A program made the translations under genes and the position numbers. The notes beneath the pieces were generated by a model. The model saw nothing but the letters and a program-made list of their open reading frames with translations, did not search any database and was not told where the DNA came from. This document shows positions 8,775-15,972 of a stretch of 64,000 nucleotides of DNA, piece after piece (positions within the stretch are counted from its first letter, which is position 1; every line of letters starts with the position of its first letter). The stretch is taken from NCBI GenBank assembly GCA_001768235.1, contig MENK01000014.1, positions 1-64,000 on the forward strand, read 5' to 3'. This stretch comes from Bacteroidetes bacterium GWB2_32_14 (GTDB lineage: Bacteria; Bacteroidota; Bacteroidia; Bacteroidales; UBA12077).

Positions 8775-9059
8775 TCATTTTTCTTTGGTAAGTTCTCTCA
8801 TGGCTTCTTCGATATGCATCTTTTTCAGTCGCAAATAATGATTAAGTGCTTCGTTTATAATTTCGCGAATATCTTTTTTTTGGTATATAGCCAATATTTT
8901 AAACTGCCTGAAAATCATCCTGTCAACAGGAATAACAAAATCGGATGTTTTTTCGGACCCAAAAAGGACCTCGTCTTCGAACTTGTCTTCGTTTAAGAAT
9001 TCGGTGTTTGAAGATAATGCCTGTTGAAAATTTTCAATATTTTTTTTATTTTTTGCCAT
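8775..9059 (-). CDS. Small ribbon-helix-helix-like partner of ParA
   Basis: This 94-aa charged protein has a basic N-terminus and a C-terminal segment (IPVDRMIFRQFKILAIYQ then DIREIINEALNHYLRLKK) with the strand-helix-helix spacing of CopG/RHH DNA-binding domains. I chose the ATG at 9059, which overlaps the end of parA by 14 bases, over an upstream in-frame start at 9083 that would lie deeper in parA. The overlap suggests translational coupling. By analogy with plasmid ParA-RHH pairs it may be the DNA-binding partner. That role is inferred, and no ParB-like gene is nearby. Confidence 0.75.
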   Translation of the reverse strand: MAKNKKNIENFQQALSSNTEFLNEDKFEDEVLFGSEKTSDFVIPVDRMIFRQFKILAIYQKKDIREIINEALNHYLRLKKMHIEEAMRELTKEK

Positions 9060-9810
9060 ACTTTTTAATAAATTCGTTTGCAAGATTTAAATAATCTTCA
9101 GCTCCATGCGACTTGGGAGCATAACTAAACACATTCTCGCCAAAAGCTGTCGATTCCATTAAAGAAATATCTGTCCTTATTTTTGTTTCAAACACTTTGC
9201 GTTTAAACCTTACATTACCCGAAAGGCTTTTAAAAACAGCTTTACTAAATTTGGTACGTGCCGAATATTTTACGAAAAGAATACCTGCCATTTCAATGCG
9301 TGAATTCATGCGTTTTTTCACTTTATCAGTAATCTGAATTATTTTATCCAGCCCGATAAAAGCAAAGTTTTCGGCTTGCATCGGCACAATAAAATAATCG
9401 GCGGCTACCAGCGAATTAATTGCAAAAGTACCTAGACTTGGAGCACAATCAACAATAATGTAATCGAAATCCGGGTGAATTGGTTCAAGAGCTTCTTTCA
9501 ACAGGTATTCTCTTCCCGGTTCGCTATTTATCCTGTACTCATAATCAAGCAGGTAATTGGTTGACGGGATTACCGATAAATGTTCTAAAGGAACTAAGAC
9601 ATCATTTATTTTTAAATCATTTAATAATAATTTCCCGATATGATTTTCGACTTTGTTTATCCCTAACGATGATGTTAAATTACTCTGGCTGTCAAAATCA
9701 ATAAGTAACACTTTATACCCTAATCCTGATAAAGCCATGCCGAGATTTAGTGTAGTAGTTGTTTTTCCTGTACCACCTTTATTATTTATAACAGAAATAA
9801 TATGAGCCAT
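9046..9810 (-). CDS. ParA/Soj-family P-loop ATPase
   Basis: This deviant Walker ATPase belongs to the ParA/MinD superfamily (254 aa). The motif KGGTGKTT lies at residues 11-18 with the signature first lysine, LLIDFDSQSNLT follows as the switch region, and DYIIVDCAPSLG is Walker B. The protein lacks the extra N-terminal DNA-binding domain of plasmid P1-type ParA. The small RHH-like gene overlaps its 3' end. Proteins of this group move DNA or protein cargo, and the cargo cannot be read from the sequence. Confidence 0.9.
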   Translation of the reverse strand: MAHIISVINNKGGTGKTTTTLNLGMALSGLGYKVLLIDFDSQSNLTSSLGINKVENHIGKLLLNDLKINDVLVPLEHLSVIPSTNYLLDYEYRINSEPGREYLLKEALEPIHPDFDYIIVDCAPSLGTFAINSLVAADYFIVPMQAENFAFIGLDKIIQITDKVKKRMNSRIEMAGILFVKYSARTKFSKAVFKSLSGNVRFKRKVFETKIRTDISLMESTAFGENVFSYAPKSHGAEDYLNLANEFIKKYGKK

Positions 9811-11021: not shown

Positions 11022-11264
11022 GATTTTTAGAGTTTAGGTTAAAAATAAAGAACTTACAATTTATTGAAAATTTAAATACATAACCAAATGCATGTTACAT
11101 AAAACATTACAAAAACACAAAAAGTTTTAATATTCGCAATAAAAAATTATTTCGTTCCGAAAATAAAATTTATTGTACTTTTAGAGTACTATAAAAAAGG
11201 ATAGGATTAAATACATACATCAATATTTAATGAATAGAATTAATAAACAGGGTTTTATAAATAA
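11022..11264. other. AT-rich intergenic region with no recognised gene
   Basis: This stretch separates the divergent SRPBCC/GyrI-like and beta-barrel genes. It is very AT-rich. I see no ORF with coding character and no strong hairpin, although it must contain the promoters of both genes. It forms the left border of the first cassette-like unit, whose repeat starts at 11265. Confidence 0.6.
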
Positions 11265-11280
11265 GTTGTATGCAATTTTA
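11265..11280 (+). repeat. Left inverted repeat of the beta-barrel gene unit
   Basis: The 16-mer GTTGTATGCAATTTTA is the reverse complement, with one mismatch, of 11943-11958 just after the stop of the enclosed gene (11323-11940). Its outer GTT and inner AATTTTA recur in the left repeat of the next gene at 12078. Confidence 0.8.
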
Positions 11281-11322
11281 GACAAAGACATAAAAATAGT
11301 AACTTCATAATAAAAATGAGAA

Positions 11323-11940
11323 ATGAAAAAAACTTTATTAATTCTAATTACATTCTTATTAACTTCTCCTTTATATGCTGGCATAACTGACTCTTTATCT
11401 GTTGGATTTGCAGGTGGATACAGTAATTACAGTACATTTCGTGGAGAATTTTATTTCAAATCTGATATAAAATTGTTTAATCGAAAATCCGAGCTAAAAG
11501 TCGGATTAGGTTCAAATTCTTATCAATTGAATTTTGATAATGTAATAGACTTAAATGCATCCTCAATTGGAATTTTTGGAGATTTGGTTATTTACCCTTT
11601 TAATAAGGTTTTATTTACAGGAATTCGTTGGGAATTAGTAAATTTTAATTGGTTATCTGATAAATCAATTAACAAAATTGAAAATGAAAGAACTTATAGT
11701 CCAACTTCATTATATACAGGTACAAGTATGTTTTTTCAAATAGGCTGTCAATTTAAACTTTCTAATAAGGTTGGAATAAAGTTGTACGCTCAACCAGGAT
11801 TCCAATATTTTAGTATTTCAAATGGTTCATCAAGTATTGGTAGTACAACGACTACAGATTCTACTGAAGACCTAATAGTAGAAGATCATTATGAATTTAT
11901 TTATAATGTAAATTTAAGTTTTGAATTTAGGATTAAGTAA
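11323..11940 (+). CDS. Small outer-membrane beta-barrel-like protein
   Basis: The 205-aa product has a clear Sec signal peptide (MKKTLLILITFLLTSPLYAG) followed by alternating polar/aromatic strands of the kind seen in 8-10-stranded barrels. The last residue pattern (FEFRIK) fits a terminal beta-strand. No family can be named with confidence. The gene is enclosed by a 16-bp inverted repeat and is the first unit of the accessory island at 11-16 kb. Its role is unknown. Confidence 0.7.
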   Translation: MKKTLLILITFLLTSPLYAGITDSLSVGFAGGYSNYSTFRGEFYFKSDIKLFNRKSELKVGLGSNSYQLNFDNVIDLNASSIGIFGDLVIYPFNKVLFTGIRWELVNFNWLSDKSINKIENERTYSPTSLYTGTSMFFQIGCQFKLSNKVGIKLYAQPGFQYFSISNGSSSIGSTTTTDSTEDLIVEDHYEFIYNVNLSFEFRIK

Positions 11941-11942
11941 TT

Positions 11943-11958
11943 TAAAACTGCATACAAC
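11943..11958 (+). repeat. Right inverted repeat of the beta-barrel gene unit
   Basis: TAAAACTGCATACAAC lies 2 bases after the stop codon. It pairs with 11265-11280 over 15 of 16 positions and is followed by ACGGCATC, the start of the inter-unit spacer. Confidence 0.8.
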
Positions 11959-12077
11959 ACGGCATCTTAAAACATGCGGGGTTTTGGTGGTTTTTTGACA
12001 TTTTTAATTTAACTTTAATTTTTAACGGCTGATCGGAACGCTGGGCGGAATTCCCGCACTTTTCCTATGCAAGAACC
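11959..12077 (+). repeat. Inter-unit spacer element A
   Basis: The 119 bases between two gene-flanking repeats start with ACGGCATC and end with GAACC before GTT. Their two ends form an imperfect dyad, with TGCGGG at 11975-11980 pairing with CCCGCA at 12053-12058. The 19-mer at 11991-12009 (TTTTTTGACATTTTTAATT) recurs exactly in the next spacer at 13184-13202. The layout resembles an integron attC site, but the integron consensus is not met. Confidence 0.65.
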
Positions 12078-12100
12078 GTTAGTAGTAATTTTAAGCAAAA
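12078..12100 (+). repeat. Left inverted repeat of the DUF4365 gene unit
   Basis: This 23-base repeat ends directly before the ATG at 12101 and pairs with 13105-13127 over 22 of 23 positions. It starts GTTAGTAGTAATTTTAAG. The repeat also occupies the ribosome-binding region, so the same bases serve as leader and as unit end. Confidence 0.88.
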
Positions 12101-13114
12101 ATGAGATACAATAATACAGAAAGATTAGGAGTTATTGAATCAGAAAGAGTTTTTACTAAAGAATTCAATTGGATATTTAGAGAACAATCAATTGCAGATT
12201 TTGGAGTTGATGCAATTATTGAAGAAGTAAAAGAATCTGATCCAACCGGTAGGTTAATTGCAGCTCAAATCAAAACTGGGCTAGGAAATTTCCATTATTC
12301 AAATAAGATCTTAACGTATTATGTATCAAATACACATTATAATTATTGGTTAGGTTATGTTTTGCCAGTAATTTTAATTGCATATTTGCCTGAGTCTGAT
12401 AATTTACTTTGGCAAATTGTATCAAAAGATACATTAAAGAAAACACCTAACAAATGGAAAATAGAAATTCCTAAAAACAATATTCTCAATAACTATGCAA
12501 AACCTGAGTTTACTGAAATTTTGGATTTGCGGTTTCGGAATATTGCAAAGAGAGAGCCTTTTCAAGGAGACCCAATGGTACTTGATATTTATAGTATAGT
12601 TGAAAATGTAAATTATATTAAGGATGCATCAAATTCAACTTTAAGATTCGTTAGTACCTTAACTGAAATGGATATTACAGTAAAAAATTATAATCAAAAA
12701 ATAAATTTATTTGCGAGTCAAGGCTGCTCTAAAACTGATAGGCAAGTAATTGCAACTATAAATAAATTTGCCCATGAATTAATTTTATTTGCAAAAAGAA
12801 TTAGGAATGAAATCGAAATTTTCACTGAACTATTTGGGTTAGGTTTTTCTTCCTATATGCAGGCATCAACTATTTACTATTCGCTTACAAGGGAAGAGTC
12901 TATTATAAAAGAGACAAAGAATGGACTTAATGCTGTTTTCAATTCTATTAATGAAGCTGAGAATAGTTTAAGGGGTATGCAAAACAGTATTAGAAAACTT
13001 CCCAAAACATATCCTAGATTAAAAGAAGCTAGAAATAAATTAGTTGAAGTAATGGATATAGTGTTAGATGAATACAATGTGGCAAAAGAATTTCTTAGAG
13101 AACCTTTTGCTTAA
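12101..13114 (+). CDS. DUF4365-domain protein, PD-(D/E)xK nuclease-like
   Basis: The N-terminal 150 residues match the DUF4365 pattern: FGVDAIIEE (about 35-42) and AAQIKTG (54-60) place D37, Q56 and K58 in the D-Xn-QxK arrangement of variant PD-(D/E)xK nucleases. The remaining 185 residues are helical and probably coiled, without recognised motifs. Nuclease activity is inferred from the motif. DUF4365 proteins occur in accessory and defence-rich regions of many bacteria. The gene lies exactly between 23-bp inverted repeats, with its stop codon inside the right copy. Length is 337 aa. Confidence 0.8.
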   Translation: MRYNNTERLGVIESERVFTKEFNWIFREQSIADFGVDAIIEEVKESDPTGRLIAAQIKTGLGNFHYSNKILTYYVSNTHYNYWLGYVLPVILIAYLPESDNLLWQIVSKDTLKKTPNKWKIEIPKNNILNNYAKPEFTEILDLRFRNIAKREPFQGDPMVLDIYSIVENVNYIKDASNSTLRFVSTLTEMDITVKNYNQKINLFASQGCSKTDRQVIATINKFAHELILFAKRIRNEIEIFTELFGLGFSSYMQASTIYYSLTREESIIKETKNGLNAVFNSINEAENSLRGMQNSIRKLPKTYPRLKEARNKLVEVMDIVLDEYNVAKEFLREPFA

Positions 13115-13127
13115 AACTACTACTAAC
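13105..13127 (+). repeat. Right inverted repeat of the DUF4365 gene unit
   Basis: This copy begins within the last codons of the gene, includes the TAA stop and runs 13 bases past it. It ends in ACTACTACTAAC. It pairs with 12078-12100 with one mismatch at 13117. Confidence 0.88.
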
Positions 13128-13368
13128 ATTGCATCTGAAAGAATGAGGGTTTACTCCCTTCGGTTGTGAAAAAAGTTCAGTGTTTTTTTGACATTTTTAA
13201 TTACAAATATACTTACTCATTAATAAATCATAAAATAACTTTCACTATTTTCAATAATAGTGGAAATTATTTCATTAAATTTATCCTTTTTAATCCGTTT
13301 ATAGACAAACTGCCGTTGACGTTCATTGGAGCAGCCCCAACAGCTAACTTGAAATATAAATAAAAACC
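13128..13368 (+). repeat. Inter-unit spacer element B
   Basis: This longer spacer (241 bases) starts ATTGCATC, comparable to ACGGCATC of spacer A, and holds the identical 19-mer at 13184-13202. It contains GGG/CCC and other short dyads. An open frame of 65 codons with a GTG start crosses it, but its composition is low-complexity and I do not call it a gene. The right end, before GTTAAATTTTA, is tentative. Confidence 0.5.
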
Positions 13369-14797: not shown

Positions 14798-15150
14798 ATA
14801 GCTGCGTTTTTAATTCATGCAATGTGAAACTGTATCTTAAAACTAATTATTTTTTTGATCTTCAACAGATTCGCAAACCAGCTTGTGTAATAAATACTTA
14901 TTACATAAATAAGCAGATTATACGTGATACAAAATAGAAAAAATTTAAGTAAAAGAAAAATTTAAAAGAAATAAAATCAAAAAGAAGAAAAGCTTATAGA
15001 AAGTTCATCAATAATGCATTCCCTAAGAAAAAAAATACAGCTTAAAATATTGTCCCAAATTTAAGTTGTGTTTTTTACAAAAATTGCTAATTTTAAGTTT
15101 CAATTAAGGCTGTTATAAAATTAGAGCGAAAATCTTCATATACTGAAACT
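14798..15150. other. AT-rich intergenic region, no gene seen
   Basis: The region between two divergent genes is extremely A-rich around 14930-15060. I see no coding frame, tRNA or stable hairpin. A segment GTTATAAAATTAG at 15111-15123 resembles the start of the repeat at 15151. Confidence 0.55.
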
Positions 15151-15173
15151 GTTATAACCAATTATTTTTGAAT
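15151..15173 (+). repeat. Imperfect left repeat of the 185-aa lipoprotein gene unit
   Basis: This begins GTTATAA and ends TTTTGAAT. It pairs with 15743-15765 at 16 of 23 positions, concentrated in the outer 7 and inner 8 bases. Position and layout match the neighbouring units, but the repeat is weaker. Confidence 0.45.
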
Positions 15174-15195
15174 TACTAATCTAACACAAAGAAAA

Positions 15196-15753
15196 ATGAA
15201 TAAACTGAATCTTCTTTTATTAACCTTAACCGGACTATTCTTATTATTCTCATGTAATGACGAGAATCAAGATAAAAATTGCCTGGATAATGAATACTAT
15301 ATATCATTTACTGCAAATGGAAAAGACTTTTGTTTTCCAAATTGTGATGCAACCTTGTCTTCTATACCTTATGGTGATTCAACTAAATACTATACCAGTG
15401 TTGGTGCCGGTGAAACTTTATATGAAGAAAATGACACAACATGGTTATTCCCTTCAATTGTTTTTACTTTCCCCGATAAAGAAGAAGGTACATTTGATAA
15501 TGATGATATAGGTGGCCTTTTTAGCTATTATGTCCAGCTGTCTTATGATTATGGTACATTTTTCTACCCATCCCCGTTTACAGAATCTGTTAGTGAAAAT
15601 TTTATATTAAAAATTGATAAATACGACTTGGATAATCATGTTTTAACAGGAACTTTTAATGGAATTATATTTAGTACTGATGAAACACAGTCGGATTCTG
15701 TGATTATTGAAAATGGAATTTTTAAAAGTCAGTTATATCAGTATTCAAAATAA
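15196..15753 (+). CDS. Lipoprotein of unknown function
   Basis: The signal peptide ends LLFSC (Cys20), which fits a lipoprotein. The mature 165 residues are acidic and beta-rich, with two Cys close together (FCFPNCDA). No family is recognised. The gene's stop codon lies inside the right inverted repeat, and spacer element C follows at once. Confidence 0.7.
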   Translation: MNKLNLLLLTLTGLFLLFSCNDENQDKNCLDNEYYISFTANGKDFCFPNCDATLSSIPYGDSTKYYTSVGAGETLYEENDTTWLFPSIVFTFPDKEEGTFDNDDIGGLFSYYVQLSYDYGTFFYPSPFTESVSENFILKIDKYDLDNHVLTGTFNGIIFSTDETQSDSVIIENGIFKSQLYQYSK

Positions 15754-15765
15754 CACCTTTATAAC
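15743..15765 (+). repeat. Imperfect right repeat of the lipoprotein gene unit
   Basis: This overlaps the end of the gene and its stop (15751-15753) and ends in TTTATAAC. It is followed by ACGGCGTC, matching the ACGGCATC that starts spacer A. Confidence 0.45.
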
Positions 15766-15844
15766 ACGGCGTCAGCCAATATGCAAGGTGCATATTGGCT
15801 TGACAACCTGATTTCCAGCAGGCAAGTTTTTATTATTTTTAAAC
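15766..15844 (+). repeat. Inter-unit spacer element C with perfect hairpin
   Basis: The 79-base spacer starts ACGGCGTC. It contains a perfect 12-bp stem with a three-base loop (15774-15785, 15789-15800) and lacks a T-run, so it is not a standard terminator. It ends at a GTT (15845) that would be the left end of a next unit. Only a 14-codon frame and no partner repeat follow before rsgA. Confidence 0.55.
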
Positions 15845-15972
15845 GTTGCCAGTGACTAATAATAAAGCAAGGCGAAAATGAATAAGTTGATTTCACGAGC
15901 ATTAACAAATAATTCCATGCTTTAACTTACTAGTAAACCCATGAATACTGAAAAGATTTCTACTTAAAAGAT

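Follow-up and report, generated by a model that had tools for sequence, protein, structure and literature searches.

The question raised by this locus is why a single gene should be enclosed so exactly by a near-perfect inverted repeat. The window, that is, the whole stretch of 64,000 nucleotides that was analysed (GWB2_32_14 contig MENK01000014.1), carries a DUF4365 gene that the first-pass annotation had regarded as a mobile unit of one gene. The repeat proved to be real: its arms lie 1004 nt apart and are complementary at 22 of 23 positions, the left one abutting the ATG at 12101 and the right one including the last codons and the TAA. A search for 23-nt stretches that lie within 3 kb of each other and are complementary in all positions but one or in all found one pair in the 9-17 kb region and one in the whole window, and none of 200 Markov-resampled 8-kb sequences contained such a pair, so that the repeat is not due to chance. 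The payload is indeed a DUF4365 gene (PF14280, E 1.4e-29, 103.4 bits against a cut-off of 24.3), and its product also matches the Aga_REase (restriction-endonuclease) profile of PADLOC at E 6.3e-16. It is from these two profile matches that a PD-(D/E)xK-type nuclease domain is suggested as a possible identity, and the C-terminal half may be helical; the single-sequence structure model has a mean pLDDT of 46, and its N-terminal half is too poor for use. As for the repeat, we consider it very likely that an integron-type gene cassette, moved by the integrase mechanism proposed below, carries the DUF4365 gene as its payload.

Each arm forms the outer edge of one copy of a longer element, and the two copies share a direct repeat at 11987 and 13180: the left arm is the 3' edge of site A and the right arm the 5' edge of site B (Table 1). 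The neighbouring gene, for which no Pfam family was found at E 0.001, owns a different pair of ends (GTT at 11265, AAC at 11956). All 7132 combinations of GTT and AAC within 11-16.5 kb were scored for such ends, and the DUF4365 pair ranked first and that of the neighbouring gene (cassette 1) second.

Table 1. Features of the cassette region in the window (positions in nt).
Feature	Position	Strand	Basis
attI-like insertion target GGTTTTATAAATAA, directly 5' of the first cassette	11251-11264	+	weight matrix score 9.3
Cassette 1, left arm GTTGTATGCAATTTT	11265-11279	+	pairs with 11944-11958, mismatch at position 11; rank 2/7132
Cassette 1 ORF, 205 aa	11323-11940	+	ORF list; Pfam search
Cassette 1, right arm AAAACTGCATACAAC	11944-11958	+	pairs with left arm
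Site A, complete attC-like site (AAC ... GTT), 125 nt	11956-12080	+	R1 129.4 bits, E 2.5e-34 (site A is itself one of the 13 sites used to build R1)
DUF4365 cassette, left arm	12078-12100	+	19/20 nt after GTT match; rank 1/7132; unpaired A 12088
DUF4365 ORF, 337 aa	12101-13114	+	PF14280; PADLOC profile
DUF4365 cassette, right arm	13105-13127	+	repeat, end score; unpaired C 13117
Site B, attC-like left half and part of loop, right half missing	13125-13203	+	nhmmer 24.8 bits, profile positions 18-91
Weak decayed attC-like site	15046-15153	+	R1 29.5 bits, E 4.5e-5
Possible further cassette, ORF 15196-15753	15151-15765	+	ends with 1-nt indel; rank 10/7132, tied with two places
Weak decayed attC-like site 3' of ORF 15196-15753	15763-15879	+	nhmmer 12.4 bits; R1 24.5 bits at 15825-15879

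A BLAST search with 11940-12110 showed that the element recurs at 22 places in the genome. The covariance model R1, built from 13 copies, gave 47 matches at E<=1e-4, some of them weak or partial, in the window and in 11 other stretches of the same genome that had been selected for their BLAST matches. The site is an imperfect palindrome of about 125 nt that runs from AAC to GTT and has both stem segments and a long loop. Many copies lie head to tail with genes between them; the strict GTTRRRY motif is kept only as far as its first R. In 103 sites, taken from this genome, from congeners and from other Bacteroidota, pairing held in 92.3% of the paired cells, compared with 63.8% after shuffling and at most 43.5% when partners were slid by 1-3 columns, in an alignment that was fitted to the model and favours the structure in this respect; an earlier MAFFT alignment of 26 sites (A1) had left divergent stems out of register and was replaced by this model-guided one. 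The AAC/GTT helix was paired in 96.9%. Cells with double changes numbered 487 against 153 in the shuffled sets, and only 11 cells were one-sided (G-T type). This near absence of G-T pairs points to pairing of DNA rather than RNA, as DNA hairpins predict. One covariation measure, that of further pair types, was not above the shuffles (54 vs 52.2; 144/500).

Folded alone, site A did no better than shuffled sequences (z 0.00 and 0.34) because it is chimeric, its left CGGCAT and right ATGCAA stems pairing incompletely, and its folding was dropped as evidence. The right half of site A (ATGCAA) would pair with the left half of site B (TTGCAT), and several other sites of this genome are also chimeric, with left and right stems from different stem families, which gives the impression that sites have swapped halves. 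A crossover in the loop as a rule was rejected on half-swapping scores, since the own halves had a mean of 9.2 (30 sites), as opposed to 6.0 with the half of the previous site (19 sites) and 6.1 for all pairs.

To evaluate the cassette ends, the sequence after the GTT of one site was compared with the reverse complement of the sequence before the AAC of the next. Among 86 neighbouring same-strand pairs 200-2500 nt apart, from which the copies in L095 of L110 sites were excluded, 65 agreed in six or more of the first 7 end positions, compared with 95 of 7310 mismatched pairings. Position 11 behaved differently: it was A in 65/65 cassette starts and G in 56/65 reversed ends. The rule failed in 21 of the 86 pairs, in some of them probably because a site between was missed. 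A smaller test on 79 pairs in the same distance range, which omitted among others the sites of L025, L030, L070 and L071, two of L029, one of L028, three of L061 and the window site at 15046, gave 62 good pairs against 86 of 6162 mismatched ones, and its end-agreement sum was reached by 0 of 10000 permutations. In those 62 pairs, positions 4-9 agreed in 60-62 cases, position 11 in 2 and positions 12-15 in 58, 59, 55 and 46, with agreement fading further out. The first version of the test, on 22 pairs up to 11.6 kb apart, had given 8.2 vs 5.8 of 20.

The DUF4365 pair was scored separately and belongs to neither the 79-pair nor the 86-pair list because site B is not a model match (no R1 match at E<=1). 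The sole mismatch of its repeat, A12088/C13117, falls exactly at position 11 and is, judged from the sequences compared, a fixed feature of the cassette class. Furthermore, its agreement at 19 of the 20 positions after GTT exceeds that of every pair in the 86-pair test (maximum of 17), so that the 23-nt repeat can be understood as an unusually long case of a rule. Given that a cassette start matches its own end and not that of the next cassette, the exchange point would lie at or just inside the GTT, as in integrons. The exact fit of the repeat to the gene, to which the first-pass annotation had attached weight, is also meaningful: in 63 cassettes the longest ORF pointed toward the site in 58, lay on the minus strand in 3 (one of them, L021:5363-6985, an artefact whose 532-aa gene has its stop inside the site) and was absent at 50 aa in 2. 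For the 58, a median of 29 nt separated the GTT from the start codon and a median of 14 nt the stop codon from the AAC, and the ORF filled 93% of the cassette, which accounts for the way in which the DUF4365 repeat hugs start and stop.

These data bear directly on two other ways in which a gene may come to lie between inverted sequences. A MITE-like unit, moved in trans by a transposase, would also present a near-perfect inverted repeat around a single gene. The ends of MITEs are common to the family, whereas here they vary between cassettes and match only within one cassette, and neighbouring cassettes have one intervening site in common; this reading is largely refuted and we regard it as very improbable. 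Still less probable, to the point of being negligible, is a pdif module, in which a gene lies between inverted XerC/XerD sites. Xer-like recombinases are present in the genome and the arrangement is that of one gene between inverted sites. A pdif module has one common dif-like XerC/XerD site at both ends, unlike the cassette-specific repeat described here, and the sites of this family are 125-nt covarying hairpins in head-to-tail arrays. Thus, the essence of the earlier proposal, a mobile-type single-gene unit without a recombinase inside, stands for the DUF4365 gene. The part that had to be given up is the mechanism, since the arms do not mark an autonomous element with transposon ends of its own: they are the cassette-specific halves of one integron-type recombination site.

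The genome encodes four tyrosine recombinases (PF00589). One of them is a protein of 381 aa whose gene lies at the end of contig C2; it is nearest to XerA and the integron integrases, and its best solved match is the Vibrio integron integrase 2a3v. The IntI-specific segment is missing from it: it has 15 residues where 2a3v has 57, with VchIntIA 186-242 absent. Against TIGR02249 it scored 213.4 bits (cut-off 265), with model positions 180-237 unmatched, and a profile search found no IntI over the cut-off in the GWB2_32_14 genome. The additional domain that is described as a defining trait of IntI (PMC9668308) is absent from the C2 integrase family. In a tree of 53 rows, from which L061 and L188 were omitted because their integrase ORFs are broken or short, the 15 IntI formed one clade (100/100) and the C2 integrase fell in a separate clade of 29 rows (97/92), made up of Bacteroidota genomes together with one Bacteroidota plasmid and one viral contig. 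Measured over the patch, the spacing was 107 residues in all 15 IntI, 65-66 in 28 of the 29 members of the new clade and 70 in the remaining one. Ahead of the aligned core, 24 of the 29 had 70-122 residues, compared with 1-64 in IntI, with ORF starts chosen mechanically. In the L048-L054 integrases, residues 1-80 form an N-terminal extension, possibly a HARP-like domain. Pfam HARP matched one of the seven clade members scanned (E 0.0016, below cut-off), and the L048 structure model has an N-terminal beta-beta-alpha-beta-beta-alpha-beta order. In Foldseek, XerA and the integron integrase took the top ranks. HARP domains bind branched or single-stranded DNA.

The sites follow this integrase family. 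A second model, R2, gave 56 matches in a scan of 42 loci, 53 of which lie downstream and on the same strand of an integrase in 13 loci; 11 of these 13 integrases are in the 29-row clade, L061 and L188 being assigned by similarity only. The other three matches (L070, L071) accompany a different tyrosine recombinase and differ from the rest in lying on its other side and on the other strand. It should be noted that the 13 loci are partly selected, as five of them trained R2 and, among L187-L194, six of the eight were chosen for a nearby site and L193 and L194 for the integrase alone. The linked loci include GWF2_33_16 (L048), palsa_968 (L050, with ten sites), Pedobacter arcticus (L053), Brumimicrobium aurantiacum (L061) and a Chryseobacterium plasmid (L113). 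Upstream of the integrase, no sites were found within 10-12 kb in L048, L053, L061 and L113, while L187-L194 cover only 0.9-1.4 kb on that side. R2 sites were absent from 8 control loci (L045-L047, L109, L115, L117, L119, L120) and from 19 further recombinase loci, several of which cover little downstream DNA and ten-odd of which are gut types with short sites. In 198 Bacteroidota genomes, where R1 was applied with strict filters, a strong integrase match (E<1e-50) was present in 18 of 25 site-positive genomes and in 53 of 173 others (p 9.5e-5), which leaves 7 of the 25 without one; the 71 genomes with strong matches need not all carry array integrases. Apparently, the cassettes are moved by this unusual integrase family of Bacteroidota.

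A different origin has been considered, namely that these are ordinary integron cassettes whose canonical IntI was since lost by the lineage, the C2 recombinase being unrelated. Canonical IntI was found over the cut-off in 57 of the 198 Bacteroidota genomes, and one of them, G219, is site-positive without a strong match to the C2-type integrase. In addition, among the site pairs located in canonical IntI loci (n=7), cassette-specific ends were seen in 3/5 of L201, 1/1 of L195 and 0/1 of L198, so that private ends in themselves are probably a trait that the C2-type cassettes share with integrons. However, those ends are shorter (8-10 nt), and the four matching canonical pairs agree at position 11, precisely where the C2-type cassettes differ. 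The seven IntI loci gave only three weak R2 matches, all in L201, whereas 13 loci have R2 sites after a gene of the other integrase family; the genome under study has no IntI over cut-off, and among the genomes listed with IntI only G208 shares the class of the window. A loss of IntI is accordingly an improbable explanation. The number of IntI-positive genomes is, in itself, higher than the older surveys suggested.

The attI of the C2-type family was seen adjoining the integrase gene in relatives, in the order integrase stop, a short AT-rich or hairpin region, typically TATAAACAAG or a variant, and then the GTTR of the first cassette, which lies 92-136 nt past the integrase stop in seven loci (L048, L050-L054, L061). 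The first cassette was confirmed by matching ends in L048, L050, L053, L187, L188, L189, L191, L193 and L194, and was placed by likeness only in L051, L052, L054 and L061. In Bacteroides and Phocaeicola (L055-L059), the DNA is the same except for one base over 71 nt through TATAACGTTA and then continues as five different sequences, the change falling right after GTTA. L069 and L173 contain the first cassette of L058 as well. These loci, together with L062, L069 and L173 (gut Bacteroides, Phocaeicola, Mediterranea and Paraprevotella, and one viral contig), have a related integrase, an attI after it, variable first cassettes and attC-like sites of about 48 nt that begin with AACAAGCGG or similar. 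R2 does not detect these short sites. An end search in nine gut loci found 7/7 ends in L056, L057, L059, L062 and L173, 6/7 in L069 and 5/7 in L055, with no clear result in L060 and L072. It is on these observations that a purely transcriptional role can be judged. Immobile, dispersed hairpins acting as terminators would be palindromic and lie 3' of genes, as the sites do; that the cassette ends pair across 0.4-2.2 kb, that attI adjoins the arrays, that the sequence changes sharply after GTTA in L055-L059 and that G-T pairs are scarce all speak against them, and we consider this reading highly improbable, if a little less so than the pdif module.

With an integron-type cassette as the preferred reading, the following mechanism can be proposed. 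As a rule, each cassette would comprise a single gene and, 3' of it, an attC-like site (about 125 nt, from AAC to GTT). The tyrosine integrase encoded at the end of C2 would recombine the folded single-stranded sites at the GTT. The free circular cassette could then enter the attI that directly follows the integrase gene, a different place with an attI-like sequence (such as that preceding 11265) or another site. In the circle both cassette ends would meet and extend the hairpin stem by about 12 nt beyond the GTT, apart from the fixed A/C mismatch at position 11. Once the cassette is inserted, its ends would sit at the two edges, as the observed inverted repeat. The mover of the DUF4365 cassette is thus probably a tyrosine integrase encoded elsewhere, and the C2 enzyme, if active, would be the candidate for this role. 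Its contig ends 67 nt past the integrase stop, and for this reason neither an array nor an attI is visible beside the integrase of this genome.

The insertion targets of the genome itself are consistent with this mechanism. A cassette start was searched for at 15 first sites and was convincing (score of at least 11 of 13) in 7: two of these come after another site, one is at a contig edge and four are at attI-like sequences. By a weight matrix built from 13 attI regions of other genomes, the scores of these four targets are reached by 2, 2, 6 and 6 of 1096 background places; in the window, 2 of 1096 GTTR places reach 9.3, the target itself counted. Another of the four, the C4 array (L027, about 12231), is headed by the same 14 bases as the attI of L048, and no integrase ORF was found near it in the stretch examined. 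This array adjoins ORFs resembling mraZ and rsmH. As to the present state of the DUF4365 cassette, this copy is probably stranded and no longer excisable, because its own downstream site is truncated; a complete site with an insert resembling that of site B is found in the congener G019 (L112:4380-4529).

A relative of cassette 1 in G037, of another family, is 69% identical over 11266-11954, almost exactly the cassette, with no R1 site flanking it. At the window locus, no clean empty/filled pair was found: G019, the nearest relative found with the upstream gene, has unrelated DNA downstream. In the same congener, the segment corresponding to 8775-9810 of the window, with a ParA-like gene and a 102-aa ORF, is missing between conserved flanking genes. 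DUF4365 relatives amounted to 3 weak matches besides the gene itself in 149 genomes of the order, and none were found in viral contigs. By the test set in the first-pass annotation, in which homologous genes without the paired repeats would count against a mobile unit, the distant DUF4365 homologues (at most 35% identity; L123-L125) are indeed without R1-type sites.

How does this system compare with those already known? Like the integrons represented by IntI1, IntI2 and VchIntIA, it has a tyrosine integrase, an adjacent attI, head-to-tail single-gene cassettes, attC-like palindromes with AAC/GTT in a similar asymmetric layout, a crossover placed at GTT and cassette-specific ends. Among the traits by which canonical integrons are recognised, attI adjacency (in the relatives), covarying AAC/GTT palindromes and single-gene arrays of one orientation were found. 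Unlike in integrons, the C2-type integrase stands in a separate clade, lacks the IntI patch (65-70 vs 107 residues) and is mostly extended at the N-terminus, its attI and array lie 3' of the integrase on the same strand, and the A/C mismatch at position 11 is conserved. The DUF4365 unit, then, behaves like an integron cassette and is outside the canonical integron family by the integrase test. In Treponema integrons, the orientation of intI is reversed. Those integrons, which are outside Proteobacteria and have intI genes, are described with attC of 63-132 nt and AAC/GTT triplets (PMC3607928); the triplets are alike, and the integrase here is not IntI. CALIN are defined as attC clusters without an integrase (PMC9024848), and the window array and the other clusters of this genome that were examined likewise show no adjoining integrase; in contrast, their sites are not recognised as canonical and four cassettes lie at attI-like targets. 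Insertions at attG place cassettes at scattered chromosomal positions (Loot et al. 2024, as cited in PMC12901181), as observed here, with the difference that our target resembles the attI of another integrase family.

Integrons are reported as rare in Bacteroidetes in the description of IntegronFinder 2.0, which mentions that earlier only In0 were known there and gives one complete integron, in Salinibacter ruber (PMC9024848), and one survey is described as having retained only integrases with the IntI additional domain (PMC2426708). In titles and abstracts of the open-licence literature, the scope of our search (subscription papers and preprints being outside it), no description of such a C2-type cassette system was found. 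A wider reading, quite possible and still somewhat doubtful, is that Bacteroidota, including gut Bacteroides, possess a second integron class, whose integrase has a HARP-like N-terminal domain instead of the patch thought to be essential, and whose private ends pair only in the free circle, so that insertion would be favoured over excision and cassettes would also spread to chromosomal places resembling attI; a survey that demands the patch would be blind to such a class. This raises the question of whether an integrase without the IntI patch can recombine folded single-stranded sites. Integrons are the best-known natural platform for gene capture, and if the C2-type integrase family is active, gene capture would be widespread in Bacteroidota. 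The cassettes would then constitute a reservoir of small accessory genes, possibly including defence genes, and the phylum may possess a large gene-swapping system that has so far escaped notice.
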